From the NCBI RefSeq assembly GCF_000179615.1, contig NZ_AEDD01000003.1, forward strand, positions 1 through 64,000: DNA of 64,000 bases, written 5' to 3'. The DNA comes from Paenibacillus curdlanolyticus YK9. GTDB taxonomy: Bacteria; Bacillota; Bacilli; Paenibacillales; Paenibacillaceae. The notes below the pieces were generated by a model that did not search any database, had not been told where the DNA came from, and saw nothing but the letters and a program-made list of their open reading frames with translations. The translations under genes were made by a program, and so were the position numbers. Below are positions 34,188 through 59,584 of the stretch, in pieces. Each line of letters opens with the position of its first letter. The stretch's first letter is position 1.

Positions 34188-35009
34188 TCAGGAATGGAGA
34201 TAAAACCTGCGAATGAAATCGCCTTTGCTGCACACATTGACTTTGTTATAAATGCGTTTAATGAACGTTCTGACGGTTAGCTCGCTAATTTTATGTTTAG
34301 CGGAGATATACTGAACCGTCTTGTTCTCCAGCCACTCGTACCCGATTTGCTTCTCGCGGGGGGTGAGCTTGTATTGATCAAACTCCGAAAATACTTTTTG
34401 CTGCTCCATCATCGCATTCGGCTTCAAATGCTGCTCGATTCCTTGAATGGCTTGAACGAGCACGGGAATGGCAAAATTGGTTTGGTACAATAGATCGAAC
34501 GTCAAGCCCAGCATGGCTACGATCGTATCCTGATTATAGATAGGGGCGCATAACCCGTAGTTGTTGCAAAATTTGTGCAGCGTGTGCTCGTTCCCTTTGA
34601 CAACGGACAGCTTATTCGTCTGCTGGCAAAGCGAGGCGGCATTAATGCCGGCCGTATTCACATCAAGCGAGCATCCCTTATGAATGCCGAGCACATGCAG
34701 GTTGTCGATCACATTCGAGGTCCCTTCGTAATCGATCACCTGCGCATCGGGCGTTAGCAGCAGGAACAGATGAGGCATCAGCAAGGATCGGCTCAACGGC
34801 TCCATCATTTGCCTGAAAACGGCCGTAATCGATTGAAACTGCTCGGCGACGGCCGCGCTTAACGCTGTCGGGCGCTTGTCTGTTCCACCGCCATTGTTTG
34901 CTGTTCGATAACATTGATTGAGCTGGGATAGTACGCTCCAGTCCAGGTCATCCACTTCGATCCAAAAACGCTTGTTGTCGGTGTTCAAATCATTAAATAA
35001 GCTTTTCAT
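34188..35009 (-). CDS. LuxR-type transcriptional regulator
   Basis: A 273-aa regulator. Residues 1 to about 200 form an unclassified sensory region, perhaps GAF-like (LLLTPDAQVIDYEG...GCSLDVNTAGINAASLCQQ...HTLHKFCNNYGLCAPIYNQDTIVAMLGLTFD). The C-terminus is a LuxR helix-turn-helix: KLTPREKQIGYEWLENKTVQYISAKHKISELTVRTFIKRIYNKVNV. AAGGAG lies 9 nt before the ATG. There is no response-regulator receiver domain. It probably controls the adjacent PKS operon and perhaps the main biosynthetic operon, since both share an 11-bp motif upstream. Ligand unknown. Confidence 0.82.
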   Translation of the reverse strand: MKSLFNDLNTDNKRFWIEVDDLDWSVLSQLNQCYRTANNGGGTDKRPTALSAAVAEQFQSITAVFRQMMEPLSRSLLMPHLFLLLTPDAQVIDYEGTSNVIDNLHVLGIHKGCSLDVNTAGINAASLCQQTNKLSVVKGNEHTLHKFCNNYGLCAPIYNQDTIVAMLGLTFDLLYQTNFAIPVLVQAIQGIEQHLKPNAMMEQQKVFSEFDQYKLTPREKQIGYEWLENKTVQYISAKHKISELTVRTFIKRIYNKVNVCSKGDFIRRFYLHS

Positions 35010-35124
35010 TTGAATGAGTCTCCTTTAATGTTAGAACGTCTCTCGTCTATCAATCGATCCCCTTTTATAATATAGATTTTGGCTTCGACGACCGCCTCTG
35101 GAGCCACTCCCTTCAATCTTATGA

Positions 35125-35144
35125 TTGGGGCCAGTCGGCCCCAA
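35125..35144 (-). other. Hairpin after the dehydrogenase gene
   Basis: TTGGGGCC/GGCCCCAA is a perfect 8-bp stem with a 4-nt loop, directly downstream of the stop at 35151. There is no U-run, so termination is not certain; it may mark the 3' end of the PKS operon mRNA. Confidence 0.5.
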
Positions 35145-35150
35145 ATCCGT

Positions 35151-36611
35151 TTACCATCTTGCCGTTACCATTTTTTTGCGCGTGTAAAATTCAACGCCAT
35201 CGGGACCATTCACATGCAGGTCGCCGTAAAATGATTTTTTCCAGCCGGAGAATGGGAAGAAGGCCATTGGGGCGGGAACGCCCACATTAACGCCGAGCAT
35301 GCCAGCGTCAATCGTTTCACGGAATTGGCGGACATAGCTCCCATTCGTCGTGAAGATGCAAGCTCCGTTGGCATAATCAGACCGATTCGCCAGCGCGATG
35401 GCCTCCTCCAGCGTATTCACGCGAGCGACCGACAATAATGGCGCAAAAATTTCATCTTTCCAAATCTTCATCTCCGAGGTCACGTTGTCAAAAATAGTAG
35501 GACCGATAAAATAGCCCTCCCGCCTCGACTCCGCATCTTGCCGGCCATCCCGCTTCAAGTCCGCGCCTTCATGCTCGCCCGATTCGATATAGCTCACGGT
35601 ACGCGCTTTATTGCTCTGTCGAATGACGGGCCCGAGGAACGCGCCTTCGTCCAGCCCGTTCCCAATCTGGATCTGGTCGGAGGCTTCGACCAGCTTCTCC
35701 ACCAGCTGATCGCCGATTTCGCCGACTGCAACGACGACCGAAATCGCCATGCAGCGCTCGCCTGCCGAACCGAAGGCAGCCGTCACGATTTGATTCACCG
35801 CTGCATCCAAATCCGCGTCGGGCATTACGATTGAATGGTTCTTGGCGCCAGCCAATGCCTGCACCCTTTTGCCAAAAGCAGCGCCTGTCTTGTACACGTA
35901 CTCCGCAACTGGCTGGGAGCCGACGAATGAAATCGATTTGACGTCCGGATGCGTCAGCAAGCCATTCACCACATCGTGCGTGCCGTGGACGATATTGAGC
36001 ACGCCATCCGGCAATCCGGCTTCCATGAATAGCTCAGCCAAGCGGTTAGCAAGAATCGGCGTCCGCTCCGAGGGCTTAAGCACGAACGTGTTGCCGCAAG
36101 CGATAGCCAGCGGGAACATCCAGCAAGGAACCATGACTGGGAAATTGAACGGCGTAATCCCGCCTACGACGCCGACCGGATACCGGTACATCCCGGACTC
36201 CATATTGGTTGCGATGTCGGGCAATTGCTTGCCCATCATCAGCGACGGAGCGCCCGATGCGAACTCCACGCATTCGATGCCGCGCAGCACCTCCCCGTAG
36301 GCTTCCGTGTAGCTCTTGCCATTCTCCTCGGTAACCATGCGAGCGAGCTCTTCCCAATGCTCGACCAGCAGCTGCTGGTATTTGAACAAAATTCTTGCGC
36401 GGCGAGGAACCGGCACTTTGCTCCATGATTCGAAAGCCGTCTTCGCCGCTTGAACGGCCTTGTCCACATCATCGATGGAGGAATGCGGGACATGCGCCAA
36501 TATTTCCTCCGTTGCCGGGTTATACACCGGATCTTTCGTCAGCGACGAAGAATGGACCCATTTGCCGCCAATCAAATTAGCTAACGTTCCGGACTCGGTT
36601 AAAATCGGCAT
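35151..36611 (-). CDS. mmsA: CoA-acylating methylmalonate-semialdehyde dehydrogenase
   Basis: A 486-aa aldehyde dehydrogenase of the MMSDH group (IolA/MmsA), which converts methylmalonate semialdehyde to propionyl-CoA or malonate semialdehyde to acetyl-CoA with NAD+ and Co[21 protein letters not shown] is the group signature, KPSE lies at the cofactor site, and [10 protein letters not shown] contains the catalytic Cys. The usual Glu general base is absent ([18 protein letters not shown]), which is the hallmark of the CoA-dependent subgroup. Its ATG overlaps the thioesterase stop. In this operon it may supply an acyl-CoA starter or extender precursor for the PKS; that is inferred. Confidence 0.9.
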
Positions 36612-37378
36612 TAATATACCCCCATCGGATTGACTGCTTTTTTCATATAATCCAGCATTTCATTGCGGTGGCTGTGCACGATAAAGTGATCGCCTTGGAA
36701 CAGCTCCAATTGGAATCCCTCACTCGTCTGCTCGCACCAATCGCTTAATTCATTCGGCGTGATCCCTTGGTCATACAAGCCGCCGAAGGCTGTAATCGGG
36801 CATGGCAGCGGCAGTTCATCCGTGTACGCATACGTCTCGCAAACTTCCAAATCCGCTCGCATCACCGGCAGGAACATATCCATCAGCTCTTTGTCCTTCA
36901 ACAGAATTTCCGGCGTCCCGTTAAAATGGCGAAGCTCTTCAATCAAATCCTCATCGCTTAGCCGATAGCGCTCGGTTTTCATGCGAGGCAGATGAGGCGC
37001 TTTAAAGGCGGAGACGAATAGATGCGCAATCGGCTTCGCATACGTGCTGCGCAGCTGGCGCGCCACCTCAAAGCCGAGCAATGCGCCCATGCTGTGGCCG
37101 AAGAAAACGAGCGGCTTGTCGGCGACCGCCATAATTTCCTTCGCCAATACGGGTACGATCTCGGAAATATGCGAGCACAGCGGCTCAGCGAATCGATTGC
37201 CTCTGCCAGGCAGCTGCACGACATGCAGCTCCAGCTCTGCCGGCATGCTAGCCGCCCACGAATCATAGATTCGCGCATTCCCGCCAGCATAAGGGAAGCA
37301 GACAAGCCGCATGCGCGCCGCCGGGTTTGGTTTTTGGCATAACAGCCATGAACGATTAATCATCACCGTATTCATCAT
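36611..37378 (-). CDS. Type II thioesterase
   Basis: A 255-aa alpha/beta hydrolase of the proof-reading thioesterase family found with PKS and NRPS genes. Nucleophile elbow GHSMGA; the Asp is in GGLYDQGI and the catalytic His in [22 protein letters not shown] is a typical TEII stretch. It would remove wrong or stalled acyl groups from carrier proteins. It sits between the PKS (11 bp upstream) and the dehydrogenase (overlapping), so the three genes form an operon. AAAGGATAG precedes the ATG. Confidence 0.92.
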
Positions 37379-37389: not shown

Positions 37390-40300
37390 TCATCGTGTAA
37401 TTAAGGCTTGGGCTTGCTCGGCCGCGTCGGCTTCCAGCTGCTGGCCGATTTTCTCGGACAGCTTGGCAACCGTCGATCCTCTAAGCAAATCTGCAACAGA
37501 GATATTAACGCTCAAGTCTTTCTCCATCTGGTTCTTCAGCTCAATCGCCATCATCGAATCCAATCCATAATCGATCAGCGATTGATCCTGCTGCAGCTGT
37601 TGGCTGCTTAGCCGCAGCACTTTAGCGGACATTTGCTGCACATAGCCCACGATTAGCTGCTGCCGTTTCTCAGGCTCGGTTTCTTGCTGGAGAAGGTCCG
37701 TGATCTTGCCGGTCAGGGCCACAGCTGTCTCCGCTGCCTGAGCATCCTCCGTTTTCTCAACAATCAAGTCCTTAAGCAATACAGGCGAAGCGCCCATCGG
37801 ATAGTTTCGTTCCTGTACCGTAGGCCAATCAGCGGCAACGACCATCACTTGAGGAAGGCCTTGGCCCAAAATCTGCTCGAGCGCTTCCAAGCCTTGGTCC
37901 GGCTGAATCGGAGTGAAGCCGCGTTTTTTCATATACTCGGCCATCTCGATCGTCCCCATCCCGAGCTCCTCCCACGGTCCCCAGTTAATGCTGTAAGCAG
38001 GCAGGCCTAAGGAACGGCGATGATGCGCCAGCGCGTCCAAGAACGAATTGGCAGAAGCATAGCTGCCCTGGCCCGCCGAAACGACAACAGAGGCAATCGA
38101 GGAGAACATGGCGAAGAAATCCAGCTCTTGATCCTTAAAGTAATGGTGCAGATTCCATGCGCCTAACGCTTTAGGGCGCAGAACGGTGCGGAAATCGTCG
38201 GCACTCATCTGCGTGACCAGCTTGGATTGCAGCACGCCAGCCGCATGAATCACGCCGCGAATCGCAGGCCAGCCTTCGCGCTCGAATTGATGGAGGAACG
38301 CATGCAGCTCCGATTCCTCTGCGATGTCCAAACTTGCCACATGGACGCTTGCGCCCAAGCGCTCCAGCTGCCGAACCGCTGCGATCCGCCGTCCTTGCGC
38401 GCTCGTTTTGTCAACCTCATGCCATGCGCTTCGTGGCGGCAGTGCGGTGCGTCCGATTAAAATCAGTCGCCGCGCCCCCTGCTTGATCATCCATTTTGCC
38501 ACCAGCTGGCCCAGATCGCCCAAGCCGCCGGTAATGATATAGCTTGCGTCCGATCGAAAGGCTAGCGGAATCGGGTTCGGGCGCTTCTCTACAGGCAGCA
38601 GCCGCGCGACGTACCGCTTTCCGTTGCGAACCGCAATTTGGTCATCTTCATCTGCATGCCAAATCTCTTCCCATATGAATGCGGCATCCGCTGAAGCCTG
38701 CTGCTTATCCAGATCGATAATGCCTCCCCAGATATCGCCGTGCTCCTGATGGCCCAGCGATCGCGCAAGTCCCCAAAGGGTAGATTGCGAAACGTTCAAT
38801 GCGGTTACTTCATCCGTCGATTGAGCCTCCCTCGTGACCAGCCAGAGCTGCGGTTTGCTGTGCCATGCCCATTTTTGCACCGTTTGTACGATATGCAGCG
38901 CCGTATTGACCGTCAGCGCCTCCGATGCCAATAAGGACTTCGGCGTGACCGCATGCTCCGCGTCAAGACTCCATAGATGGACAATGCCTCGACAAGCTGC
39001 CTTGGAGGAACGGAATACGCCGTTAAACAATTGTTCAAAATGCGCAGGCTGGTTCGGATCAATCGCATACGTATTGCCGTCCTGTTCAAAGCTCGCCGAC
39101 TCGCTCGCCCAAATCGCGATGCACCGTTCGCCTTGCGCATGCAGTCGGTCCATTAAGGATTGGCCTACGCCTTGCGCATCCATGAAGATCAACCAATTGC
39201 CATCGCCTTCCGTCTGGCTTGCCATCGCAGCTTCCCGCGGCAGCTGCCGATCCTGCTGAACCCACTGGATGGCATACAATTGCTGCTCCCTGCCCGGCTC
39301 CTGCTCTTCCTGCTCCATCAGCACGGCATGGCATCCCTGAATTTCTAGAATCAGCTGTCCATGCTCGCCAAGCAGCTGGATGTCCCCCTTGATCGATTTT
39401 GCATCCTGCTCCTCGACCTTCGCATGCACCCACATGCATCTTTCCATCGGCTGATGGATGACGAGCCTCTCCACTTCAAACGGCAAGTATCGAGACTGCT
39501 CATGCTGCCCATTGGCCAGCTGCGTGCAGGTCATCGCTTCGCTTAGCACATGGAAGCTCGAATCGAGTACAGCCGGATGCACCTCCAGCGCATCAATCTC
39601 CTGCATGACGCTCGAAGGGATCTCGAAGAAGGCAAGCGCTTCGTTGCAGCTTCTTCTTATTTCCTTGATTAGCGTAGTCGAGCGGGCATGCTCCAGATTA
39701 AACAGGATCGATTGATTCAACAGCGTAGGCATATTGACGATTTTCTCGCTGGATTGAACAGCGGTGCGCAGCTTGCCGGTAGTCAGCAGCAGCCATTGCG
39801 AATACGCCGGAGCTGATGCGCTATAGACGCTGAACGTTGCATCGGTGGGGTCGATGATGAAGCGAAGCTTCACGGATGCATCGTCGGTCAGGAACAACGG
39901 CTGCTTAAACTGAATATGCTCGATCTGCACAACCGCGGATGAATCGTCGACGAGCGAACGTGCCGCAGCCACCGCCATTTCGATATATCCGGCAGCAGGA
40001 AGCGTATTCTGGCACTGCAGATAAGCTTTGCTCAGCGCAGACAGCACATCAGCATCGATCACCTTCTCCCAGGTTGGATATGGAGCAGGAAGCCGCTTGC
40101 CTAATAACGGGTGATTCTCGACGCCGACGCGATCCAGCTCCGAGGCTTCGGATTCCAGCCAGTACCGCTCGCGCTGCCATGCGTATGCTGGAAGCTTGAC
40201 GTGTTTGCCGTTCGGATACACATTCGCCCATGCGATCGGATAACCAATCGTATACAAGGCTCCAAGCGCAGTTAACATTGTTCCGCGCTCTGGCTCCCCT

Positions 40301-42846
40301 CGACGAAGCGATGAAACGATCGTCGCTTGGCAATCGAGCTTAGCTGCACATTCGGCTATCGAGCTTGTAAGCACCGTGTGCGGGCCGATTTCGACGAACA
40401 TGCTGTAGCCATCCTTGAGCAGCTCCTGCGCAGCTGCCGCAAAATAAACCGGTTCGCGCACATTTTTCCACCAATAGCCCTCATCCAGCTGGCTTCCCTC
40501 TATTAAGGCTCCCGTTACGGTTGAATAGAGCGGCAGAGTCGTCGGATGCAGCTCAAGCGCTGCAAGCTTGTCGAATAATTCTGATTTTATAGGCTCCATA
40601 TAGTGGCTGTGGTAGGGAACGTTAACGCGTAAATATTTGCAAAACACATCTCTGGCTTGCAGCGGAACGACGACGTGCTCCAACGCTTCCGGGTCCCCGA
40701 CCAGCGTGACTGCATGCGGGCTATTGATAGCGGCAATCGAAATGCGGTCCTCATACCCGCGCAGCAGCTCTACTGCTTCTTCCATCGGGAGCCCAACCGC
40801 GACCAGCTTGCCTTGTCCGGTCGTCTTCTGCTGCAAGCGGCTGCGGTGGTAAATGACGCGCACGGCTTCTTGCAGGCTCATCGCCCCTGCGATGTAAGCG
40901 GCAGCTACCTCGCCAGCGCTATGTCCGACGATCGCATCCGGCTCGATGCCCCATGAACGCCACAGCTCGACCAGACCGACTTGCAGGGCAAAGTTTGCCG
41001 TTTGGGCCACTTCTGTATCGCCCATACGCGATGCTGCTTCGTCGGCCAGCATCTCTTCCAGCAGCGACCATCCCGTATAAGGCGTCAGCAGCGCATTAAT
41101 ATCATCCAGCACCTTCTGGAACACAGGCTCCTCCCGGTACAGCTGCTGGCCCATTGCCCACCATTGCGGCCCCATTCCCGTAAATACAAACGCCATTTTG
41201 GGTAAAGCGTGACCCTCATCGTTCTTCGCACTGCCGCCCGCATGGCCTGCGATCATCCCTTGGCGGGCTTCGTTCGCGGCAAACGCCTCCAGCGATTCCA
41301 CAAGCTCTTCCTTGGATCGCACGACGACAGCGAGTCGATGATCATGCTGGTCACGCCGCTTGCTTGCGGTATACGCAATGTCATCCAACGACATCTCCGG
41401 CCGCTCCAACTGGGAGGCAACTGCCGATTTCAAAGCATTCGCGTTGGCAGCCAGCGCTTGCTCGCTGCGCGCGGATACAGGAATGAGATAAGCCGAATGC
41501 TGCCTGTTCGCCTGCGTGTCTTCGGTTGCGCGTACCGGCGCTTCCTCCAATACGACATGCGCATTCGTTCCTCCAAAACCGAAGGAGTTGACGCTGGCGA
41601 TAGCTTGGCCATTTGTCCTCGGCCATGGCGTCACCTTATCCGAGATTCGAAGCTTAAGCGCTTGGAGCTTGATTTGGGGATTCAGCTGTTTCAGATGGAG
41701 ATGCGGAGGAATTTCTTTATGCTTCAAACTCATCACCGTCTTGATCAATCCGGCAATGCCCGCTGCAGCTTCCAAATGGCCGATGTTCGTCTTTACGGAG
41801 CCGATATAGCACGCCTGATCGTCCGGCCGCAAGTCCGAGATCACGTTGCCGATCGCCGATGCTTCAATCGGATCGCCGACAGCAGTCCCCGTGCCATGCG
41901 CTTCGACATACTGCACTTCGTACGGCGCCACGCCAGCACGCTCGTAAGCTTCACGCATCAATGCCTCCTGCGCCTCTCCGCGCGGCACGGTAATGCCTGC
42001 GCTGCTGCCGTCCTGATTAACGGCCGTTCCTCGGATGAGCGAATGGATCGGATCGCCGTCTGCAAGTGCTTGCGACAATGGCTTAAGCACAACAACGCCT
42101 GCGCCTTCTCCCCGCACATAACCGTTCGCGCTCGCATCGAACGTCTTGGACCTGCCGTCAGCGGACAGCATTCCGGGCTTGGATAGCGCAATGAAATAAT
42201 CCGGCTTCAGCATGACGTTAACTCCGCCGGCTAAAGCAACGGCGCTCTCGCCGGACCAAATGCTCTGGCAAGCCATATGTACGGCTACCAGCGAAGAAGA
42301 ACAAGCGGTGTCGAGCGCCATGCTCGGGCCGCGAAAATCGAACGCATAGGAAATCCGATTGGCCAGCAATGTCATCATGGTGCCGGTTGCCGAATGGGAA
42401 TCCACCAGATGACGGTTATGCTCGGAAAACTGCAGCAATTGGTAATCGAGCGTAAAGCCGCCCATGAACACGCCCGTCCTGGAGCCTGACATCTCGCTCA
42501 CGATCTGGCCGCCGTCTTCGAGCGCTTCCCAGCATGTTTCCAGAAGGAGCCGCTGCTGCGGGTCCATCATGGATGCTTCGCGAGGCGAGATGCCGAAAAA
42601 CCGGGCATCAAACTCGTCGATCTTATCGAGGAAGCCTCCCCATTTGGCAGCGGTCTTCCCTGATTTGGAGCGCGTAGGATCATAGTAAGACGAAATGCTC
42701 CAGCGGTCGCTCGGCACTTCTGTTATCGCATCAACACCTGCCCGAAGCATCTCCCAGTACTGCTGCGGATCGCTCGCTCCTCCAGGAAAACGGCAACCCA
42801 TCCCAATAATTGCGATCGGCTCACGTGCTTGCACATGCTTATTCAT
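37390..42846 (-). CDS. Single-module type I polyketide synthase (KS-AT-DH*-KR-ACP)
   Basis: An 1818-aa PKS. The KS has DTACSSSL, EAHGTGT and NIGHLEAAAG (active Cys-His-His). The AT has GHSAGE and, in the specificity region, VPYHSHYM, which is neither the usual malonyl (HAFH) nor methylmalonyl (YASH) motif. The DH region starts at ENHPLLGKRL, but the catalytic His motif HxxxG is replaced by AYLQC; the later Asp is kept (HPAVLDSSFH), so DH is probably inactive. The KR has GGLGDLG and the Ser-Tyr pair (FSSIASVV, GQGSYASAN). The ACP has the DSM phosphopantetheine Ser. There is no docking, loading or TE domain. ATG 42846 has GAGGAGG upstream. Predicted to extend an acyl starter to a beta-hydroxyacyl chain. 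Confidence 0.93.
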   Translation of the reverse strand: MNKHVQAREPIAIIGMGCRFPGGASDPQQYWEMLRAGVDAITEVPSDRWSISSYYDPTRSKSGKTAAKWGGFLDKIDEFDARFFGISPREASMMDPQQRLLLETCWEALEDGGQIVSEMSGSRTGVFMGGFTLDYQLLQFSEHNRHLVDSHSATGTMMTLLANRISYAFDFRGPSMALDTACSSSLVAVHMACQSIWSGESAVALAGGVNVMLKPDYFIALSKPGMLSADGRSKTFDASANGYVRGEGAGVVVLKPLSQALADGDPIHSLIRGTAVNQDGSSAGITVPRGEAQEALMREAYERAGVAPYEVQYVEAHGTGTAVGDPIEASAIGNVISDLRPDDQACYIGSVKTNIGHLEAAAGIAGLIKTVMSLKHKEIPPHLHLKQLNPQIKLQALKLRISDKVTPWPRTNGQAIASVNSFGFGGTNAHVVLEEAPVRATEDTQANRQHSAYLIPVSARSEQALAANANALKSAVASQLERPEMSLDDIAYTASKRRDQHDHRLAVVVRSKEELVESLEAFAANEARQGMIAGHAGGSAKNDEGHALPKMAFVFTGMGPQWWAMGQQLYREEPVFQKVLDDINALLTPYTGWSLLEEMLADEAASRMGDTEVAQTANFALQVGLVELWRSWGIEPDAIVGHSAGEVAAAYIAGAMSLQEAVRVIYHRSRLQQKTTGQGKLVAVGLPMEEAVELLRGYEDRISIAAINSPHAVTLVGDPEALEHVVVPLQARDVFCKYLRVNVPYHSHYMEPIKSELFDKLAALELHPTTLPLYSTVTGALIEGSQLDEGYWWKNVREPVYFAAAAQELLKDGYSMFVEIGPHTVLTSSIAECAAKLDCQATIVSSLRRGEPERGTMLTALGALYTIGYPIAWANVYPNGKHVKLPAYAWQRERYWLESEASELDRVGVENHPLLGKRLPAPYPTWEKVIDADVLSALSKAYLQCQNTLPAAGYIEMAVAAARSLVDDSSAVVQIEHIQFKQPLFLTDDASVKLRFIIDPTDATFSVYSASAPAYSQWLLLTTGKLRTAVQSSEKIVNMPTLLNQSILFNLEHARSTTLIKEIRRSCNEALAFFEIPSSVMQEIDALEVHPAVLDSSFHVLSEAMTCTQLANGQHEQSRYLPFEVERLVIHQPMERCMWVHAKVEEQDAKSIKGDIQLLGEHGQLILEIQGCHAVLMEQEEQEPGREQQLYAIQWVQQDRQLPREAAMASQTEGDGNWLIFMDAQGVGQSLMDRLHAQGERCIAIWASESASFEQDGNTYAIDPNQPAHFEQLFNGVFRSSKAACRGIVHLWSLDAEHAVTPKSLLASEALTVNTALHIVQTVQKWAWHSKPQLWLVTREAQSTDEVTALNVSQSTLWGLARSLGHQEHGDIWGGIIDLDKQQASADAAFIWEEIWHADEDDQIAVRNGKRYVARLLPVEKRPNPIPLAFRSDASYIITGGLGDLGQLVAKWMIKQGARRLILIGRTALPPRSAWHEVDKTSAQGRRIAAVRQLERLGASVHVASLDIAEESELHAFLHQFEREGWPAIRGVIHAAGVLQSKLVTQMSADDFRTVLRPKALGAWNLHHYFKDQELDFFAMFSSIASVVVSAGQGSYASANSFLDALAHHRRSLGLPAYSINWGPWEELGMGTIEMAEYMKKRGFTPIQPDQGLEALEQILGQGLPQVMVVAADWPTVQERNYPMGASPVLLKDLIVEKTEDAQAAETAVALTGKITDLLQQETEPEKRQQLIVGYVQQMSAKVLRLSSQQLQQDQSLIDYGLDSMMAIELKNQMEKDLSVNISVADLLRGSTVAKLSEKIGQQLEADAAEQAQALITR

Positions 42847-42897
42847 CAGCTTCCTCCTCACATTTACTCAAAATTCAAACCTAATTTCTATAAAATC

Positions 42898-42908: not shown

Positions 42909-43381
42909 CTTTCGTGTAAAATAACCGTTAATTTATTGTTTTTTGAATTATTTAACGTATACTCTAGAAATAGATTCGTGTTCAGCAACGTTCTTAAATT
43001 CGAGCCACTTCTACTGCGAACACCATTTTCTTCAGCTCAATGGTCAAATTTTCTACGATTCATACGCGTTTTCTCCCTTTCTCGCCATTTTGATACAAAA
43101 CGTAACCCAATGATACCACACCAAAAATGATTTTCAATTATTTATTTTATATAGAATAAATTGTCGAATAACGTAGTTAAATATTTTTCTAAAAATAGTC
43201 TATTATCTGGTTGCGCTAGTCGAAATTAGATGCTATCATGATTACGTAATCGATTGGACGATAATTGACCCTGTGGGACTTTTATCGTCCCGTATGGAGG
43301 GATGAGCTCACTTTACTTCACCTGCTGATGTCTCGCTGATGTCTGTAATTCAAAACCAAAACCAAATTGGAGGTAATTAGA
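42909..43381. other. AT-rich divergent promoter region between PKS and gapA
   Basis: The whole gap between the PKS and GAPDH start codons is about 535 bp, markedly richer in A+T than its surroundings, and shows no plausible coding sequence. It holds the promoters of two divergent genes, the shared 11-mer just to its left, a perfect 12-bp palindrome (43240-43251), and a stem of GGACGATAA/TTATCGTCC (43256-43290). The rest shows no structure that I can define. Confidence 0.6.
43211..43291 (+). promoter_or_regulatory. Promoter and operator-like palindromes of the GAPDH gene
   Basis: -35 TTGCGC (43211-43216), a 17-bp spacer, -10 TATCAT (43234-43239). Immediately after is GATTACGTAATC, a perfect palindrome (43240-43251). 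Then comes GGACGATAA/TTATCGTCC (43256-43264/43282-43290), which overlaps an alternative inverted repeat GGGAC-N7-GTCCC (43275-43291) reminiscent of CggR/SorC-type operators. Regulation of this promoter is likely; which protein binds is unknown. Confidence 0.5.
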
Positions 43382-45486: not shown

Positions 45487-45516
45487 TAATAACACCTTCC
45501 GTTGCTCTAATTTTAT

Positions 45517-49274: not shown

Positions 49275-50525
49275 CTATTCCCAAATAAATGGAATGCTGC
49301 TTAATCGCTCTTCAATCTCGTGAATGATTCGATCCTCTTCCTCTTCGCTATCCGCGACAAACGTGACGGAAAACCGGACGTTCGCCCCTACCTCATCCCA
49401 TGGCACCGTTGAAATCAATTGCTCCCGAATGAGATATTCCGAGAACTGCTCAGCCGACGTAAATTCTGGTCCGCCCGCTATTCCCTTCGGAATTTCTACA
49501 TATAAGAAGAAAGCTGCTTTCGGCTTCCGGGCGTTAAATCCGACCCGATTGAGCGCTTCGACCAATTTGCCATGCCGCCGCGAATACTTTTGTCCCGTCA
49601 AAACCGTTAATTCCGGATGATTCAGACAGTACACGCCCGCTTTCTGAATCGGAATAAATTGTCCGGAATCGCAGTTGTCCTTCACGTGAGCGAACGCTTT
49701 GACAACAAGCTCGTTGCCTGCCACGAAACCGAGGCGCCAGCCGGTCATATTAAACGATTTGGACAAGGAATGGATCGAAACGCCGATTTCCTTAGCCCCG
49801 GGCACAGACAGGAACGACAAAGGCTGTTCGCCTTCGAACGTTAACGCGGCATAGGCCTCGTCTGAGACGACAATGATCTGATTCGCTTGGCAGAACTCGA
49901 CCACGCTCTCGTAAAATTCCCGGGTCGCCGTCGCGCCGGTCGGATTGTTCGGGTAATTAATGTAGAGCAGCTTAGCCCGCTTCCGTACGTCCTCCGAAAG
50001 AGCCGACAGATCCGGCAAGTAATTGTTCGCTTTCGTTAATGGGAGATGGACAACCTCTCCGCCCAGCCATTGCGTATGGGTAGCCATCACCGGATAGCCG
50101 GGCGTCGTCATTAACAAGATATCGCCGGGATTGATAAACATGAGCGGGATTTGGGACAAAGCGGATTTGGAGCCGATGCAGTGGTTGATTTCGGTAGCAG
50201 CGTTCATCCCGGTAATGCCGAACACCTCTTGCAAATAATGAGCGGCCGCTTCCTTGAATTCGGACATGCCGTTATCGGAATAAAACCGATTGTCCCGCTT
50301 CGCCGCCTCTTCCGCCAGCACTTGAACGACAGCAGGGTCAGCCATCCAGTCCGGCTCGCCAAGCCCCATGTCGATCAGCTCGCGATCCGGAAATTTGGCC
50401 TTCGCCTCGTTTTTCGCGCGCTTAATCTTCTCGAATTTATACACCTTCGTATCCAGCCCGAATGTACTGCCGCCAATTCGATTGGCGAATGCATTTTGAA
50501 TCGTGCTTTGCGTAATCACCGACAT
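49275..50525 (-). CDS. LL-diaminopimelate-aminotransferase-like aminotransferase
   Basis: A 416-aa class I PLP enzyme related to DapL and other subgroup I-gamma aminotransferases. GLGEPDW near the N-terminus, NYPNNPTGA, VVSDEAYAALTF and SIHSLSKSFNMTGWRLGFVAGN with the Schiff-base Lys are all present. DapL itself transaminates tetrahydrodipicolinate, but within this operon it more likely moves an amino group onto or off a pathway intermediate. Another DapL-like gene is at 60679. It is 8 bp from the SagB-adenylation fusion gene; AGGTG precedes the ATG. Confidence 0.87.
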   Translation of the reverse strand: MSVITQSTIQNAFANRIGGSTFGLDTKVYKFEKIKRAKNEAKAKFPDRELIDMGLGEPDWMADPAVVQVLAEEAAKRDNRFYSDNGMSEFKEAAAHYLQEVFGITGMNAATEINHCIGSKSALSQIPLMFINPGDILLMTTPGYPVMATHTQWLGGEVVHLPLTKANNYLPDLSALSEDVRKRAKLLYINYPNNPTGATATREFYESVVEFCQANQIIVVSDEAYAALTFEGEQPLSFLSVPGAKEIGVSIHSLSKSFNMTGWRLGFVAGNELVVKAFAHVKDNCDSGQFIPIQKAGVYCLNHPELTVLTGQKYSRRHGKLVEALNRVGFNARKPKAAFFLYVEIPKGIAGGPEFTSAEQFSEYLIREQLISTVPWDEVGANVRFSVTFVADSEEEEDRIIHEIEERLSSIPFIWE

Positions 50526-53455: not shown

Positions 53456-54183
53456 AGGCCCGTCCTCCTTGATTCATTAAAATGATGATCAACCTTCCTG
53501 CACCAATAAGCCCAATATTCTCGAAGCGCAGTCGTCCCGAAAATAATTTTTTTCTTCATCTTTACTTCATGAGCTTCCGATGAACCATACGGAACGCCTG
53601 TCGATTCCGCTAGCAATTGCAGCTTGCAAGCATTCTCCAATGCGATTGCCCAGCATACCGTCTCCGGTATCGACTTGCCAGCCGCTACGATGCCGTGATT
53701 TTTGAGCAGCATCGTATTGCTTTTCTGAAGCGCCTTCGCCACCTCTTGGGCAATTCCCTTATTCGTCACCGTATTCGTCGTTAATGTAAATCGGGTCGTA
53801 TCGATGATTGGCGTCGCATCATGCGTGACAGCCTTCAGCTCAAGCGCAGTCGCACTGAAGATCATGGCATACGGGGGATGAGAATGAATGATGCAATTCA
53901 CATCCTCCCTTGCCCGATAGGTTTCGGTATGCAATGGCCACTCCGCTGGAATGACCCCTTCGCCCGCAATCCGATTGCCATCCAGATCGATGTTTATGAA
54001 ATCGTCATGGGTCGTTTCTTCCCAGCCCATAAATGCCCGTCTGATCCAGATCGATTGACCGTCCCGGAACGAAATCTGTCCATTATTGATGTCGTTATGG
54101 CCTTCCAAATATAGGATTTTGGAACCGTACACCATCTCATCGATGAAGGCTACCTCACTCTTCTCTTTCACCTCGTTCGCCAT
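53452..54183 (-). CDS. Class II aldolase/adducin family protein
   Basis: A 243-aa member of the class II aldolase/adducin family. Zinc-binding His residues appear in IIHSHPPYA and in LLKNHGIVAAG; the acidic catalytic residue is in HTETYRARED. The N-terminus ILYLEGHNDINNGQISFRDGQS is characteristic of the decarboxylase/aldolase-like subgroup. It may cleave or form a C-C bond, or decarboxylate, on a pathway intermediate. Its stop overlaps the ATG of the SagB fusion gene and its own ATG is 9 bp after the carrier-protein stop. Confidence 0.88.
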   Translation of the reverse strand: MANEVKEKSEVAFIDEMVYGSKILYLEGHNDINNGQISFRDGQSIWIRRAFMGWEETTHDDFINIDLDGNRIAGEGVIPAEWPLHTETYRAREDVNCIIHSHPPYAMIFSATALELKAVTHDATPIIDTTRFTLTTNTVTNKGIAQEVAKALQKSNTMLLKNHGIVAAGKSIPETVCWAIALENACKLQLLAESTGVPYGSSEAHEVKMKKKIIFGTTALREYWAYWCRKVDHHFNESRRTGL

Positions 54184-54192: not shown

Positions 54193-54456
54193 CTATATCG
54201 ACAAAGTCATATTTTGATTTCCGCTCTCCACATAGTGCTGCAGCGCAGATAATTGATCGAACACTTCCGAGCTGACCTCTTCCACATCGATGTTCAAATC
54301 AAAATTTTCTTCTATTAATACGACGAGACGAATCTTTACTAGAGAATCAAGACCCAGCTGCTTGATGGAATCGCCTACACGCTCCAAGTCCTCCATCGTC
54401 ACGTTGTGATCAGAAGCTTCAATAATAAGCTCCTTCAGAAGGCTGCGGGTATCCAT
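54193..54456 (-). CDS. Free-standing acyl/peptidyl carrier protein 1
   Basis: An 87-aa carrier protein. The phosphopantetheine site is Ser38 in QLGLDSLVKIRLVVLIEENFDLNI, with the standard DSL motif and four-helix pattern. It lies between the halogenase and the aldolase and adenylation genes, so it is the likely carrier of the substrate loaded by the adenylation domain. GGAGGG precedes the ATG. Confidence 0.92.
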   Translation of the reverse strand: MDTRSLLKELIIEASDHNVTMEDLERVGDSIKQLGLDSLVKIRLVVLIEENFDLNIDVEEVSSEVFDQLSALQHYVESGNQNMTLSI

Positions 54457-54538: not shown

Positions 54539-56182
54539 TTAAACTAGCGTTAAGCTGCCGCTTGAGCTGTTTTCCATGTCGAAGTACAATTTGCGATTCC
54601 GTTCCGGTCCGATTTTCGTGCCCCACTCGACGATATCAAGCAGCGCTTTGCCATCCATTTTGGAAATATAGTGGCGATCCGGGTTTGTCAGCTCATACTG
54701 CTCTGGCACATAGTCGATTTCCGAGTACAGCTGATAGATTCGCGTAATCGCGGATTCTACATCCAGCTCCTCGTCGCCTACGGCTTCCAGGATCGATGCC
54801 ACTTTATCGAAGAGCTCTTGGAATTCCGGCAAATCTCCGCAGAGGGAGCCGACGAATGGATGCTGCTCCAACTGCAGCAAGCCTTCCTTGTCGCCCTTGT
54901 AATATTTGGACAGTACTTGCGTGAATCGCAGGGACGTATACGCTTGGCCCAGCGTCCAAACTCTGTACCATGCATTCCACAGCTCGAAGTTGCGGAACGC
55001 AATGTACGAGCAGTTAACCAGACGATCATTCGTATCGAACGACTTCGAAATGATGTCGCCGACACGGCTGAACCGTTCAACGTTAAAGTCGTTTTCTTTC
55101 GTTGCATCAATCAGCTGCTGAGCGAGCGAGAAGATCGTCTCGGACGTGATTGCGAGGCCGCGCGAGAACAGCGGATCGATGAAGCATGCGGCATGCGCCA
55201 TCAAGCAGTAACGATGGCCGATAACCGAATGCGCCGAATATTGCAAGCGATTCACCTTCACCCAGTCGCGAACCGGCTTCGCATTGGCGAACTGTTTGGC
55301 GATATCCGGGAACTTGTCCAGGAATGCGGCGAACATTTCTTCCGGCGGCAGGTTGATATCGAATGGCAGCTTGTCCAGCCGCTTATGATCGAATTGAAGA
55401 CCTACGCTTACGAGCGGATTTTTCGCGTCCTTATGGTTGTTGAACGGAATCACCCACAGCCAGCCGCCATCAAAAATATGATGGAGAGTGCCCTTATGTA
55501 ATGGGCTTGGAATGTCAAGATCGCCTTTTTTATAAAACTCGTCCAACGGCGCCACATCGATCATATGGGTGAAGATCGAACCCGTATTCGCCTTCATCCG
55601 CGTCGGCTCCTCGCGAAGACCCTTCTGTTTCGCAAGAACGGACTGCATGCCGCTGCCATCGACCAAAAACTTCGCGTAGAACGTGCCTTGCGAGGTTTCG
55701 ATAATGACTTGATCCTCTTCGAACGTGAGGTTCGTCACCATCGTTCTTTGCTTAACGACCGCGCCGTAGCGAACCGAAACCGCGTGCAGATAAGCATCCG
55801 TATCCTGACGATAGAGATGCGCCTCAGCGCCATACGGGATATTCGGAACAGGCAGCTGCGTCATTTCTTTCGGGTTTTGCGCTTCGCCCGGACGTTGATA
55901 CACGAACGAGAAGTTGCGTTTGATCCCGCACATGGAGGAGATATTGTCGCGAAGGAGCGGCAGCGTGCTGCAGTTCATAATCTCCGGTACGTCATAGCGC
56001 TCGGCGATCGAACGCATGTAGAAGGAGGTCGTCGGAATCATCGATTCGCCGATCGCGAACTTCGGATGCGTGCCGCCGTCCAGTACCAACGTCTTGACAT
56101 TATGTCTTGCCAATACGGCTGCGAGCGTGGCTCCGGCAACGCCGGAGCCAATAATTGCGACATCAAAGAACTGCTTTTCCAT
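54539..56182 (-). CDS. Flavin-dependent halogenase
   Basis: A 547-aa FAD enzyme of the tryptophan-halogenase superfamily. FAD loop GSGVAG (residues 12-17), KFAIGESMIP (41-50), and WLWVIP (241-246), which satisfies the halogenase WxWxIP signature. It resembles the group acting on carrier-protein-bound substrates (PltA/CmlS type) more than free tryptophan halogenases. It needs reduced flavin from a reductase encoded elsewhere. ATG 56182 has GAGAGGGG upstream; the in-frame codon at 56200 has no SD. It is placed between the BtrH-like paralog and carrier protein 1. A related non-halogenating monooxygenase remains possible. Confidence 0.85.
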   Translation of the reverse strand: MEKQFFDVAIIGSGVAGATLAAVLARHNVKTLVLDGGTHPKFAIGESMIPTTSFYMRSIAERYDVPEIMNCSTLPLLRDNISSMCGIKRNFSFVYQRPGEAQNPKEMTQLPVPNIPYGAEAHLYRQDTDAYLHAVSVRYGAVVKQRTMVTNLTFEEDQVIIETSQGTFYAKFLVDGSGMQSVLAKQKGLREEPTRMKANTGSIFTHMIDVAPLDEFYKKGDLDIPSPLHKGTLHHIFDGGWLWVIPFNNHKDAKNPLVSVGLQFDHKRLDKLPFDINLPPEEMFAAFLDKFPDIAKQFANAKPVRDWVKVNRLQYSAHSVIGHRYCLMAHAACFIDPLFSRGLAITSETIFSLAQQLIDATKENDFNVERFSRVGDIISKSFDTNDRLVNCSYIAFRNFELWNAWYRVWTLGQAYTSLRFTQVLSKYYKGDKEGLLQLEQHPFVGSLCGDLPEFQELFDKVASILEAVGDEELDVESAITRIYQLYSEIDYVPEQYELTNPDRHYISKMDGKALLDIVEWGTKIGPERNRKLYFDMENSSSGSLTLV

Positions 56183-56196
56183 TAAGTAATCCCCTC

Positions 56197-57192
56197 TCAT
56201 CGATTGACAGCTACAGACCTTTGCAAGGTATCGAATGCTGACTCTTCATCATTTTTTAGTAAATCGCATTTGTTTTTTAGCTTTGAGAGATCCAACTTTC
56301 CTGTCATATTTTTCTTAATTAGCGAATAGCGAATGGACTCCAAATAGCCGGTAATTCGATCAAACAATGCGATGGTTTCCGTGCTAATGGCATCAATCCG
56401 TTGAAGGAATTGCATGAAATGCTTTCTGGAGCCAATAAGAATGGTAATGAATTGAAGTAAACGGTCATCCTGCTGCAGGGGTTGGTCAATGCTCGCATTC
56501 GCAATAAGATCCGGAATTTCGGTGTACAACTCAAAATCCATACTTAAATGGCTTAGCATTTGTTCAAAACGGGGATAAAAAATCGATTGCAAATAAGGCT
56601 TGTCGCTGTTGAAATGGCTCTCGTAATAAATCACGTCCCATTTCGATTCCAAGGTCTCATGCGAACCAAAGTCAAATTCATTATCATAAAAGGAGGATAT
56701 CGTTGCTGCATCACATTCATAGGTGATGTAGTCCCTGCCGCTTCGATAAACATCGGCATCGTAGATATCATCCCTTACGTAATAGTGACCGGTCCCCGGG
56801 TTAATCCCGCAAAGGACGATGGAATGCAGCTCGTGGCGGGTCATGTACGTGTTTTGCTTGTAGGGAAGTCTGTACCCATCCCCGAATAACAAAGCCACAT
56901 CATTGCGTTTGAAAATCTCGGACAATTCGTCTTCGATTGCGTTGAACTGAAGCGCGTGGATGCGGTGCGTCTTAATATCGAGCAGCTCGAGCTCATCCGC
57001 ATTGGCTACCTTATCCAGATACAGATTTCGGTTCATGCCCTGCTCATAGATCGATTGGAAAATCTCCTTCGGCTGCTCATACGCGCCATAGAACAGCAGA
57101 TCGATCGGGATACCCTTCGTGTGCAGATAGCTTAAGGACTGGTTTCTTCTGCAATTCAGGTACTGATCGTTCAAATCGTATTTCGTAATCAT
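56197..57192 (-). CDS. Papain/BtrH-like fold protein, biosynthetic paralog B
   Basis: A 331-aa paralog of the 44479 gene: DQYLNCRRNQ (Cys14), PYKQNTYMTRHELHSIVLCG with the His, and the acidic YVRDDIYDAD, then GSRKHFMQFLQ and TGKLDLSKL. The Cys-His-Asp order fits a papain-like acyltransferase or peptidase fold as in BtrH. It starts 4 bp after carrier protein 2 stops, so the two are likely partners. Function inferred from motif order only. Confidence 0.75.
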   Translation of the reverse strand: MITKYDLNDQYLNCRRNQSLSYLHTKGIPIDLLFYGAYEQPKEIFQSIYEQGMNRNLYLDKVANADELELLDIKTHRIHALQFNAIEDELSEIFKRNDVALLFGDGYRLPYKQNTYMTRHELHSIVLCGINPGTGHYYVRDDIYDADVYRSGRDYITYECDAATISSFYDNEFDFGSHETLESKWDVIYYESHFNSDKPYLQSIFYPRFEQMLSHLSMDFELYTEIPDLIANASIDQPLQQDDRLLQFITILIGSRKHFMQFLQRIDAISTETIALFDRITGYLESIRYSLIKKNMTGKLDLSKLKNKCDLLKNDEESAFDTLQRSVAVNR

Positions 57193-57196: not shown

Positions 57197-57445
57197 TTAT
57201 TCTTCTTCCAGCTCGCTAATCAGCTGGCTGATTTTGCGAATGCTTGAGAAATGCTCAAGGCGGACAACGTCTTCGTCAAAGCTACAGCCAAACTCTTCTT
57301 CCAGCAGCACAATCGTTTTAACGATTGCGATCGAATCCAAGCTGATCTCGGCATCCGTGCTCAGCTCCAAATTAAATTCAGATTCGACAACTCTTTTCAC
57401 CACAGAAATAATCTCATCCATACCAAGTTTTACAGCAGTCGCCAT
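57197..57445 (-). CDS. Free-standing acyl carrier protein 2
   Basis: An 82-aa carrier protein with the phosphopantetheine Ser38 in ISLDSIAIVKTIVLLEEEFGCSF. The helices II and III pattern fits acyl carriers. It is the first gene of the long leftward operon, with AAAGGAGG upstream of the ATG. Paired with paralog B directly downstream. Confidence 0.9.
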   Translation of the reverse strand: MATAVKLGMDEIISVVKRVVESEFNLELSTDAEISLDSIAIVKTIVLLEEEFGCSFDEDVVRLEHFSSIRKISQLISELEEE

Positions 57446-57481
57446 TTAATTACCTCCTTTTGACTTTCTATATTGCATAGT

Positions 57482-57593: not shown

Positions 57594-58205
57594 TCAGCCC
57601 GCTCCATCCGGATTATGAAGTAAAAAAAGCTTTAAATGTCCCGAAATATGTTCGATGGCGTACCCCATATGCTGGTTGCTTCCCTCCAGCTTGCTTAGCA
57701 ATATGCCCCCTTCGAGCGATGCAATGAAGAACGAAAACAATGATTCCTCATCGATCTCCTTTCGGAACTCTCCGCGATCGATCCCCTGCTGCAAGATGTC
57801 TTTCATCATCTGCTTCCATACTGCCAGCGTATGCCTTGCTTTCTCCAACAACAGGGGATGACCGTCATCATTCTCCACAGCCGTATTCAACAAGGGGCAG
57901 CCGCCCGTAAAGGGCGGATCGTCCACGACGTTGCCGTACACTTCAAAGAATGCGATCAGCTTATCGAACGCCGATGCTTTCCCTGCCAAGGCAGCATCGA
58001 TCTTCTCCCTTACTACGCGCACAGCGTAATCGTAGGCCGCCAGCGCAATTTCGTCCTTATTAGTAAAATGCCGATAAATCCCTCCTTTCTGAATGCCGGT
58101 CATCTGAATGATTTCATTCAGCGACACCCCTGCATAGCCGTGCGTGTTAAACAGAGCAGCCGCTTGCTCAATAATACGCTCGCGTGTTTGCTCGCCTTTT
58201 TTCAT
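57594..58205 (-). CDS. TetR/AcrR-family regulator
   Basis: A 203-aa repressor. The N-terminal helix-turn-helix is TRERIIEQAAALFNTHGYAGVSLNEIIQMTGIQKGGIYRHFTNKDEIALAAY. The C-terminal ligand domain carries PFTGGCPLLNTAVENDD, typical of the YcdC/TetR_C group with a Cys at the pocket. It is divergent from the MFS gene, and a palindromic operator lies between them, so it likely represses that exporter and is released by the exported compound or a related ligand. Confidence 0.88.
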   Translation of the reverse strand: MKKGEQTRERIIEQAAALFNTHGYAGVSLNEIIQMTGIQKGGIYRHFTNKDEIALAAYDYAVRVVREKIDAALAGKASAFDKLIAFFEVYGNVVDDPPFTGGCPLLNTAVENDDGHPLLLEKARHTLAVWKQMMKDILQQGIDRGEFRKEIDEESLFSFFIASLEGGILLSKLEGSNQHMGYAIEHISGHLKLFLLHNPDGAG

Positions 58206-58250
58206 AAAGCCTCCCTCCTCTCCGCCAAGGTAGTCAATGGAAAATTATAC

Positions 58251-58309
58251 TTGACTTTACTAGCGTATATGTTTAAACTTCGAAAATAAAGATACCGATC
58301 AGTATCTTT
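58251..58309 (+). promoter_or_regulatory. Promoter and operator of the MFS gene
   Basis: -35 TTGACT (58251-58256), a 17-bp spacer, -10 TAAACT (58274-58279). Directly after is the inverted repeat AAAGATAC-N6-GTATCTTT (58288-58309), centred near the start site: a probable TetR-type operator. Confidence 0.75.
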
Positions 58310-58330
58310 TTATGAGGGAGGATGCTACAA

Positions 58331-59584
58331 TTGGAGAAAATGTGGTTTCAGGAAAAACGGTCAGCCTGGATGTTGCTTTCGATCTTGTGGTTCATTGCCT
58401 TCTCGGGCAAACTGTCACGCTTCGTAATGGCAGTGTTTCAAGTGCAAATTGCAGATGATTTTCACATCGCCAGAAGCTTGGTGGCAGGGGCCTGGTCAAC
58501 GAACTTATTGATAACAGCGTTTTGCGCCCCTATTGGAGGAGCACTCGTCGACCGGTACGGAGCCAAAAAAGTGCTGATTCTCAGCAGCCTCTTCAACATC
58601 GTGGGCGCTGCCGTCGTCTGCTTATCAAGCGGACCGATCTGGTTCTACATCGGCTATGGCGTCATCAGCGGCTTCTCAGGCATAGGCGCATCTACAAGCT
58701 ATGTACTGCTCTTCAAATGGTTCAAGCAACATCGGGCCAAAGCAACAGCGATTCTAACTAGCGCTTCATCCATCGGGCTTGCGATCTGTACGCCTGTCTT
58801 CGTCTCCAATACGTGGCTGACCTGGCAAGACGCGTTCCTCGTCACGGCAGTGCTCGGCTTAATTACGACCCTTCCATTGTTCATCGTTGCCATGCGGTCT
58901 CCGGATGAAACCGCCAAACCTTCTCAAGAAGCAACTCCAGCGGACAAAACGAAAAAGCCGAAAAAACAAGGCGTTGGGCTCGTTAACTTCCTCAAGCATC
59001 CGCTCCTGTTCATCATCAGCTTGGCGCTGTTCACCTGCGGTTTTAACATGGGTACCGTCGAAATGAACCTTGTTACCATTCATCAAATGGCTGAGGTTTC
59101 CCCAGCTGTTATTGCTTTCGTCATGAGCCTTCTCGGCATTATGGAGATTACTGGCGTCTTCGCTTACGGCTATGTGCTGGACCGTATGAACAAAAACATG
59201 GTCATGGCCCTTTTGTATACCGTACGCATCGCTGCGTTCTTCATCCTGTTCCTCCATCTCGCTTGGTCGCCGCATATCTTTGCCATTCTGTTCGGCATCA
59301 CGTACCTCTCTGCGATTCCAGGCGGATTGCTGATTGCCAATGATGCGTTCGAGGAAAAAGGCAAAGCGACGGGCATTCTGATCATGTTCCACCAAGCCGG
59401 CGGCATTGTCGGCGCATTGGTAAGTGGTATCTTCTACGATATATTCGGCAACTACCAAATGCTGCTCCTATTAAACGGCGCGCTTTGCGTACTCGTCGCT
59501 TGCGGCTACTACATGACGAACAAAGCGAATTTCGCGAAAAAACGGTTTACGACTTCAGCTACTCGCGAGACTTCGCAAGCCTAG
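58331..59584 (+). CDS. MFS transporter
   Basis: A 417-aa major facilitator protein (from TTG 58331) with 12 hydrophobic helices and an acidic cytoplasmic loop between helices 6 and 7 (PDETAKPSQEATPADKTKKPKK). The motif between helices 2 and 3 is GGALVDRYGAKKVLI. It resembles the oxalate/formate-antiporter (OFA)-like branch. TTG 58331 has GAGGGAGG 9 nt upstream; ATG 58322 is immediately behind that SD and less likely. Divergent from the TetR gene; probably exports the cluster product or a precursor, though this is inferred from position. Confidence 0.88.
   Translation: MEKMWFQEKRSAWMLLSILWFIAFSGKLSRFVMAVFQVQIADDFHIARSLVAGAWSTNLLITAFCAPIGGALVDRYGAKKVLILSSLFNIVGAAVVCLSSGPIWFYIGYGVISGFSGIGASTSYVLLFKWFKQHRAKATAILTSASSIGLAICTPVFVSNTWLTWQDAFLVTAVLGLITTLPLFIVAMRSPDETAKPSQEATPADKTKKPKKQGVGLVNFLKHPLLFIISLALFTCGFNMGTVEMNLVTIHQMAEVSPAVIAFVMSLLGIMEITGVFAYGYVLDRMNKNMVMALLYTVRIAAFFILFLHLAWSPHIFAILFGITYLSAIPGGLLIANDAFEEKGKATGILIMFHQAGGIVGALVSGIFYDIFGNYQMLLLLNGALCVLVACGYYMTNKANFAKKRFTTSATRETSQA

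Follow-up and report, generated by a model that had tools for sequence, protein, structure and literature searches.

The window analysed here, a stretch of 64,000 nucleotides from Paenibacillus curdlanolyticus YK9 (contig NZ_AEDD01000003.1, positions 1 to 64,000), carries a thiotemplate-type biosynthetic gene cluster made up of two leftward operons, with a gene for a glyceraldehyde-3-phosphate dehydrogenase (GAPDH) lying between them on the plus strand. The upper operon runs from 57445 (start of the acyl carrier protein ACP1) down to 44479 (end of BtrH2) and encodes, in order, ACP1, BtrH1, a halogenase, ACP2, a class II aldolase homologue (AldII), a SagB-SagB-ANL fusion, an aminotransferase, X330, a β-propeller protein, a metallo-β-lactamase (MBL)-fold hydrolase and BtrH2. 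The lower operon (42861 down to 32847) encodes a polyketide synthase (PKS), a thioesterase, a semialdehyde dehydrogenase (MMSDH), a LuxR-type regulator and a Na+/H+ antiporter, and a TetR-family regulator and a plus-strand exporter of the major facilitator superfamily (MFS) form the upper end of the cluster. Domains were assigned by Pfam and NCBIfam profile searches of the window proteins, judged against curated cutoffs:

32847-34103, minus strand: antiporter of the Na+/H+ exchanger family, likely cluster member (PF00999, 183.3 bits)
34188-35009, minus strand: LuxR-type regulator (PF00196, 34.9 bits)
35151-36611, minus strand: MMSDH, CoA-acylating (methyl)malonate-semialdehyde dehydrogenase family (TIGR01722, 650.8 bits, cutoff 448.5)
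36611-37378, minus strand: stand-alone type II thioesterase (PF00975, 161.4 bits)
37390-42861, minus strand: single-module PKS, KS-AT-DH(inactive)-KR-ACP by Pfam domains, without a thioesterase domain
43256-43289, plus strand: tandem operator of the CggR type ahead of the GAPDH gene, repeating every 20 bp (pattern match)
43382-44392, plus strand: second GAPDH, candidate self-resistance enzyme, transcribed divergently from the PKS operon, 336 aa when counted from ATG (TIGR01534, 438.4 bits, cutoff 367.2)
44479-45495, minus strand: BtrH2, predicted CtaG/BtrH-like papain-fold acyl or peptidyl transferase (alignment with BtrH1)
45517-46464, minus strand: MBL-fold hydrolase (PF00753, 76.2 bits)
46454-48247, minus strand: BT_1020-like β-propeller protein with a sialidase-like carbohydrate-binding module (PF24067, 323.4 bits; PF22585, 90.5 bits)
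48270-49262, minus strand: X330, CtaG/AziU3/CcbD-fold protein without an invariant cysteine
49275-50525, minus strand: LL-diaminopimelate-type aminotransferase (NF004937, 672.4 bits, cutoff 585)
50534-53455, minus strand: SagB-SagB-ANL fusion, oxidase didomain plus adenylating enzyme (TIGR03605, 133.6 bits; PF00501, 165.9 bits)
53452-54183, minus strand: AldII, class II aldolase family, its gene sharing 4 bases with the fusion gene (PF00596, 134.7 bits)
54193-54456, minus strand: ACP2, stand-alone carrier (PF00550, 25.7 bits, cutoff 20.8)
54539-56200, minus strand: flavin-dependent halogenase, CtcP/PltM clade
56197-57192, minus strand: BtrH1, predicted CtaG/BtrH-like papain-fold acyl or peptidyl transferase (conserved residues and fold match)
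57197-57445, minus strand: ACP1, stand-alone carrier (PF00550, 25.4 bits, cutoff 20.8)
57594-58205, minus strand: TetR-family regulator (PF16925, 102.2 bits; ScbR-type model 92.5 bits, below its cutoff of 150)
58322-59584, plus strand: MFS exporter (PF07690, 152.9 bits)

The families named in an original prediction for this locus were borne out by the Pfam and NCBIfam profiles. These comprise the ANL domain, the SagB domain (TIGR03605 cutoff 78.4, matched in the N-terminal half of the fusion), the two small carriers, a halogenase with a WxWxIP motif (GSGVAG and WLWVIP are both present), the class II aldolase, aminotransferase, type II thioesterase and CoA-acylating dehydrogenase, the LuxR and TetR regulators and the MFS protein. 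The DH domain of the PKS, the GAPDH, the MBL hydrolase, the β-propeller protein and X330 had been missed or misread. Moreover, the bounds set at 34188-59584 leave out the antiporter at 32847-34103, yet its homologues sit inside related clusters, within the operon in P. phyllosphaerae, in the P. chitinolyticus group and in a further locus, G439.

Full-length fusion proteins were found in 5 of 295 sampled genomes of the family. Scanning the GTDB collection yielded 11 loci; seven bear a full-length fusion, and four of these seven lie in genomes already seen in the family sample. The fusion is 91% identical in Paenibacillus sp. MMS18-CY102, 53-54% in Paenibacillus sp. HGH0039, sp. UNC499MF and P. 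chitinolyticus, 48% in P. phyllosphaerae, 46% in P. xylaniclasticus and 45% in Cohnella lubricantis. A halogenase search across 392 genomes of the order gave matches in five and contributed G439, and none of the plasmid records covered 80% of the fusion. Nine loci, the window and eight others, were compared; we grouped them into six lineages. All eight other loci contain the fusion, AldII, ACP2 and X330; seven contain the aminotransferase, the β-propeller protein and a BtrH-like protein; six contain the halogenase, MMSDH, antiporter, MFS exporter and MBL hydrolase, and two the LuxR regulator. Six of the eight, in addition to the invariant genes, share the halogenase, aminotransferase, MMSDH, MFS exporter, antiporter, β-propeller protein and further CtaG/BtrH-like proteins. 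The core genes of G439 follow one another in a single run (BtrH-like, ACP, halogenase, antiporter, ACP2, AldII, fusion, aminotransferase, X330, MFS, second BtrH-like, β-propeller, MMSDH, MBL).

The PKS, thioesterase, GAPDH and TetR genes, on the other hand, recur in one of the eight loci, that of MMS18-CY102. The two operons had been expected to be conserved together; across the Paenibacillaceae neighbourhoods this failed for the PKS and thioesterase and held for MMSDH and the antiporter, which elsewhere lie within the core operon. Extension by the PKS therefore lies outside the core pathway, MMSDH may have a role independent of the PKS, and the proposed order of oxidation, halogenation and subsequent extension is possible for the PKS-bearing variant only. 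Among the nine loci, the window and MMS18-CY102 alone carry the PKS and thioesterase, which are an addition to the core. Against the nearest relative, 20 gene pairs were compared for the ratio of nonsynonymous to synonymous substitution rates (dN/dS), the ACP1 pair being left out. A ratio was obtained for 19 of them, which include two flanking genes; the TetR pair was saturated. The ratios range from 0.021 to 0.104, with 0.034 for the cluster GAPDH and 0.093 for the PKS; such low values indicate working genes. The cluster is real, conserved and wider than had been described, and the window holds a PKS-bearing variant of an apparently undescribed family of non-canonical thiotemplate clusters. 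Full-text literature searches returned no paper in which BtrH, SagB and a halogenase come up together with an acyl carrier protein in a biosynthetic gene cluster, a second, SagB-centred set of terms gave none either, and the listings of further searches showed no match to the gene set, in agreement with the earlier statement that no described pathway has this gene combination. The P. xylaniclasticus locus (L044:4610-18125) adds genes for an aminodeoxychorismate-synthase-like protein, a class IV aminotransferase, an FkbH-type protein, a glycosyltransferase and a phosphopantetheinyl transferase, so that the core seems to serve different products.

The closest SagB relatives of the fusion belong to a second, nonribosomal peptide synthetase (NRPS)-like type of locus, found in several Paenibacillaceae, in which a SagB didomain, some 495 aa long and 37-43% identical to the N-terminal half of the fusion, adjoins large proteins of about 1,260-1,570 aa matching the ANL part. 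One such pair lies in the P. curdlanolyticus genome itself (C24:36001-56000, L047), others in L048-L052, L061 and L062.

Three proteins of the upper operon could handle acyl groups on the carriers. BtrH1 scored 24.4 bits against PF14399, under the cutoff of 29.7, while BtrH2 had no Pfam match and X330 no PF14399 match even at an E-value of 1. In the BtrH1/BtrH2 alignment, C14, H123 and D141 (BtrH1 numbering) are invariant in all eight rows, and structure models of BtrH1 and X330 matched only CtaG, AziU3 and CcbD at E ≤ 0.001. We therefore retain the predicted pair of BtrH-like paralogues on the strength of the conserved residues and the BtrH1 fold, with the qualification that neither reaches the PF14399 cutoff; BtrH1, by its model, and BtrH2, by alignment, are putative papain-fold Cys-His-Asp acyl or peptidyl transferases. 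There is no cysteine among the invariant alignment columns of X330. As a Cys-less member of the CtaG/AziU3 fold present in all nine loci, X330 offers a test case for a transferase fold turning to another reaction.

By analogy, the cluster might work like the non-canonical thiotemplate lines of closthioamide and the lincosamides. In closthioamide biosynthesis, the papain-fold enzyme CtaG is described as transferring 4-hydroxybenzoate between carriers (PMC6772006), and BtrH as an ACP:aminoglycoside acyltransferase (PMC10318531). Like the closthioamide pathway of Ruminiclostridium cellulolyticum (CtaG, CtaE/CtaH), the present cluster has stand-alone carriers and the CtaG fold (X330, BtrH1) and would be an NRPS-independent thiotemplate system; it differs in its SagB-ANL fusion, halogenase, class II aldolase and PKS, and sequence identity is only 10-13%. 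No family of the AANH thioamide synthetase type, a feature of closthioamide-type pathways, appeared among the Pfam matches of the window proteins scanned, and no condensation domain was reported among the 20 proteins scanned. The resemblance to lincosamide CcbD/LmbD and butirosin BtrH lies in the CcbD fold, whereas amino sugar and aminoglycoside genes are missing here and the PF14399 cutoff is not reached; azinomycin AziU3 likewise shares its fold with X330 and BtrH1 but only 10% identity.

Among solved halogenases, the window enzyme is closest to CtcP, the tetracycline 7-halogenase (444 bits), and PltM (324 bits), whose host pathways are unrelated, as compared with 64 bits for PltA, which acts on a carrier-bound pyrrolyl group. 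Both the GxGxx(G/A) and WxWx(I/V)P motifs are present, and Lys94, which we take to be the catalytic lysine, aligned with a lysine in both alignments. The enzyme thus belongs with the phenol-type flavin halogenases of the CtcP/PltM clade. As it groups with enzymes acting on free phenols, chlorination may but need not occur on a carrier-bound acid, as had been proposed. A pyrrole route with a PltA-like halogenase was ruled out by the same scores. The PKS is a single module, as predicted, with intact motifs in KS (DTACSS, HGTGT, KTNIGH), AT (GHSAG), KR (YASAN) and ACP (GLDSM); its overlooked DH domain lacks the HxxxGxxxxP motif in a motif check, so that one round of extension would leave a hydroxyl group.

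What the fusion loads can be narrowed by its neighbours. The cluster aminotransferase has stand-alone counterparts of 62-64% identity in five genomes that are cluster-less or of Cohnella type (G005, G012, G092, G200 and G052), whereas a search at E ≤ 1e-70 found no copy in 7 of 16 genomes compared. In the C. lubricantis cluster, a second DapB (L046:3563-4399, 160 bits, cutoff 122) directly follows the fusion gene; that genome also has a housekeeping DapB (267 bits), while four other genomes tested have one DapB each. The recruitment of two enzymes of the diaminopimelate (DAP) pathway types, as judged from their sequences, suggests a DAP- or tetrahydrodipicolinate-like intermediate. AldII retains metal-type histidines (H100, H102, H163) in all four aligned sequences. 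One conceivable though unlikely building block is a chloro-hydroxypyridine acyl unit, arising from a tetrahydrodipicolinate/DAP-like ring acid through DapL/DapB steps, SagB aromatisation on the carrier, AldII decarboxylation and chlorination. The aminotransferase score above the LL-DAP cutoff, the second DapB and a weak similarity of AldII to dihydroxyphthalate decarboxylase (76.9 bits, cutoff 200) agree with this route, to which the ANL domain lends no obvious pyridine-acid assignment and in which the substrate and the halogenation of a hydroxypyridine by this clade are putative. Markedly less probable is 4-hydroxybenzoate, made from tyrosine by the aminotransferase and a NovR-like AldII, loaded by the ANL domain and then chlorinated. 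The phenol-directed halogenase clade, a CtaG crystal structure with p-hydroxybenzoate (PDB title) and the AldII-NovR match (78.5 bits) fit this proposal, but NovR ranks fourth among 34 PDB sequences, behind three other aldolases, the aminotransferase is of the DapL and not an aromatic type, and the SagB oxidase would be left idle. The Asn of the ANL motif HNG presumably aligns with that of aryl-acid ligases such as DhbE, which fits 4-hydroxybenzoate and, in view of DhbE and GrsA, would speak against an α-amino acid substrate. The neighbours of the stand-alone aminotransferase gene in Cohnella, read by eye, look like pyrimidine genes.

The gene between the operons adds a further element. The cluster GAPDH is 68% identical to the genome's other GAPDH; P. 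curdlanolyticus and MMS18-CY102 have two GAPDH genes each, the cluster copy and one beside a SorC/DeoR-type regulator gene, the latter copy neighbouring phosphoglycerate mutase or enolase genes (the MMS18-CY102 enolase was read by eye). Thus, by sequence, a second, functional-looking GAPDH lies in the cluster and a housekeeping copy elsewhere. Both cluster GAPDHs differ at 33 positions that are identical in at least 32 of 33 GapA proteins of the order, one of the differences being an inserted residue, and both keep the SCTTN active site with its catalytic cysteine. In a comparison with 39 GapA proteins, ten of the 33 changes recurred in three orphan GAPDHs of another genus (G393, G394, G414), whose genomes also hold a normal gapA and a gapB-like gene, making the orphan a third GAPDH. 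In a tree, the cluster pair (100/99) and the three orphans form a clade (95/91), with the caveat that the bootstrap had not settled and three gapB-like rows sit on long branches. A fresh duplication of the host gapA was rejected on account of this separate clade. A 251-aa open reading frame antisense to the GAPDH gene (43313-44068, minus strand), reduced to 137 aa in the relative, was treated as an artefact.

The intergenic region shared by the PKS and GAPDH genes (520 bases) is well kept between the window and MMS18-CY102. It contains the operator GGACN6TGACN5GGGACN6CGTC, with a repeat period of 20 bases; this pattern, composed post hoc from the site itself, occurs once in the window against 0.01 times expected in shuffles. 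The operator is conserved in MMS18-CY102, and the same layout lies upstream of the regulator gene preceding the genome's own gapA and close to the orphan GAPDH genes. The only NCBIfam match of that regulator is DeoR (85.6 bits, cutoff 420); its assignment as a probable CggR rests on its position and a link to the SorC family. A looser operator pattern was found upstream of two orphan genes (L127, L128) and not in L083, L084 or L126, in which a scan with a single half-site also detected sites. CggR is described as being released by fructose-1,6-bisphosphate (FBP) and dihydroxyacetone phosphate (DHAP) (PMC11229326), so a block at GAPDH would itself switch on the spare GAPDH.

Tentatively, and at a little less than an even chance, we suggest that the cluster joins carrier-bound acids without NRPS modules, that the product of the PKS variant inhibits GAPDH and that the second GAPDH is an insensitive isozyme. 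Judging from the enzyme families, the ANL domain would activate an acid and load it onto ACP2, the fused SagB didomain and AldII would oxidise or cleave the loaded acid, and the DapL-type aminotransferase would set a nitrogen. The CtcP/PltM-type halogenase might then chlorinate an electron-rich, phenol-like ring. The movement of acyl groups among the two carriers and an amine could fall to BtrH1 and BtrH2, which would act like CtaG, CcbD and BtrH, and X330 could cyclise a carrier-bound intermediate, as AziU3 does. In the window organism and MMS18-CY102 only, the PKS module would add a two-carbon unit and reduce it to the hydroxyl. The product would leave through the MFS exporter and, in the PKS variant, block GAPDH, the insensitive copy sustaining glycolysis; blocked glycolysis would raise FBP and DHAP, release CggR and induce the spare enzyme.

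A somewhat doubtful but serious competing explanation keeps the thiotemplate cluster as described and takes the GAPDH for an accessory isozyme of glycolysis or stress that came to lie between the operons without any link to the product. Several observations speak for it or against the resistance proposal. The orphans of the same clade lie, in three genomes, outside any related cluster, where a BLAST comparison of 20 kb around each (L126, L127 and L128, from G394, G393 and G414, respectively) with the window genes revealed no other gene in common; this argues for an older isozyme that was not born in the cluster, from which a resistance copy may have been recruited. The gene carries its own CggR-type operator, and such control suits ordinary glycolysis as well as resistance. 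Clusters without the PKS share most of the chemistry and manage without a spare GAPDH: one of the cluster type is absent from all six tested genomes with PKS-less clusters (G033, G035, G052, G310, G311, G312), each of which has a single gapA-type copy (joined, in G310-G312 and G033, by a distant GAPDH of 37-49% identity), and no GAPDH lies within the 38-kb locus of G439. The two GAPDH-bearing loci come from close relatives and probably reflect one event, and the P. curdlanolyticus genome is without a gapB-type copy, so the gene could be a plain metabolic isozyme. This last point is tempered by G003, G035 and G057, which also manage with one GAPDH. Against a chance arrival stand the position that the gene shares in the two species with the PKS, divergent from the PKS operon across a conserved intergenic region, the strong purifying selection on the cluster GAPDH, and the single GAPDH of three of four other genomes of the genus, the fourth (G046) having a second at only 39% identity.

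FkbH-type proteins use 1,3-bisphosphoglycerate, the product of GAPDH. It is nevertheless very improbable that the GAPDH-like enzyme is itself biosynthetic, oxidising or reducing an aldehyde or acyl phosphate toward a PKS starter or extender: the many changes at otherwise fixed positions, the semialdehyde-handling MMSDH of the same cluster and the FkbH-type protein of P. xylaniclasticus are compatible with such a role, but the enzyme scores above the curated threshold for GAPDH-I (438 against 367 bits) with its catalytic motif intact, no FkbH is encoded in the window and the operator is of the glycolytic type.

The proposal of an insensitive GAPDH has a precedent in pentalenolactone clusters with gap1, described as holding a second GAPDH inside the cluster and a normal copy elsewhere, the insensitive enzyme being closer to those of thermophiles than of mesophiles (PMC11727764). 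The likeness is the pairing of a GAPDH in a biosynthetic cluster with a normal copy elsewhere; the pathways differ, a Streptomyces sesquiterpene route there and a Paenibacillaceae carrier/halogenase/PKS cluster here, in which insensitivity is a candidate property. A resistance gene within a cluster reveals the target ahead of the compound itself, and if our proposal is true, that target is GAPDH. To our knowledge, few natural inhibitors of this enzyme are known (pentalenolactone, heptelidic acid). That the cluster makes a new bacterial class of them, a chlorinated, possibly ring-strained or electrophilic acyl compound built by an NRPS-free carrier route with a SagB-ANL fusion and a Cys-less AziU3-like cyclase, extended by one PKS module and paired with a self-sensing insensitive GAPDH, is rather unlikely when taken as a whole. 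A resistance isozyme induced by the metabolites that pile up at the blocked target would, if real, be a simple self-sensing design. The core gene set also provides a genomic handle on Paenibacillaceae thiotemplate pathways built on the SagB-SagB-ANL fusion, of which the literature searches found no description.

Two further observations concern the surroundings. The BT_1020-type β-propeller protein (46454-48247) sits in a biosynthetic operon, and a homologue is present in seven of the eight other loci. A second DapL-like aminotransferase gene (60679-61905, 35% identical to the cluster one) flanks the cluster next to a 5'-3' exonuclease gene, and both genes occupy the same position in MMS18-CY102.

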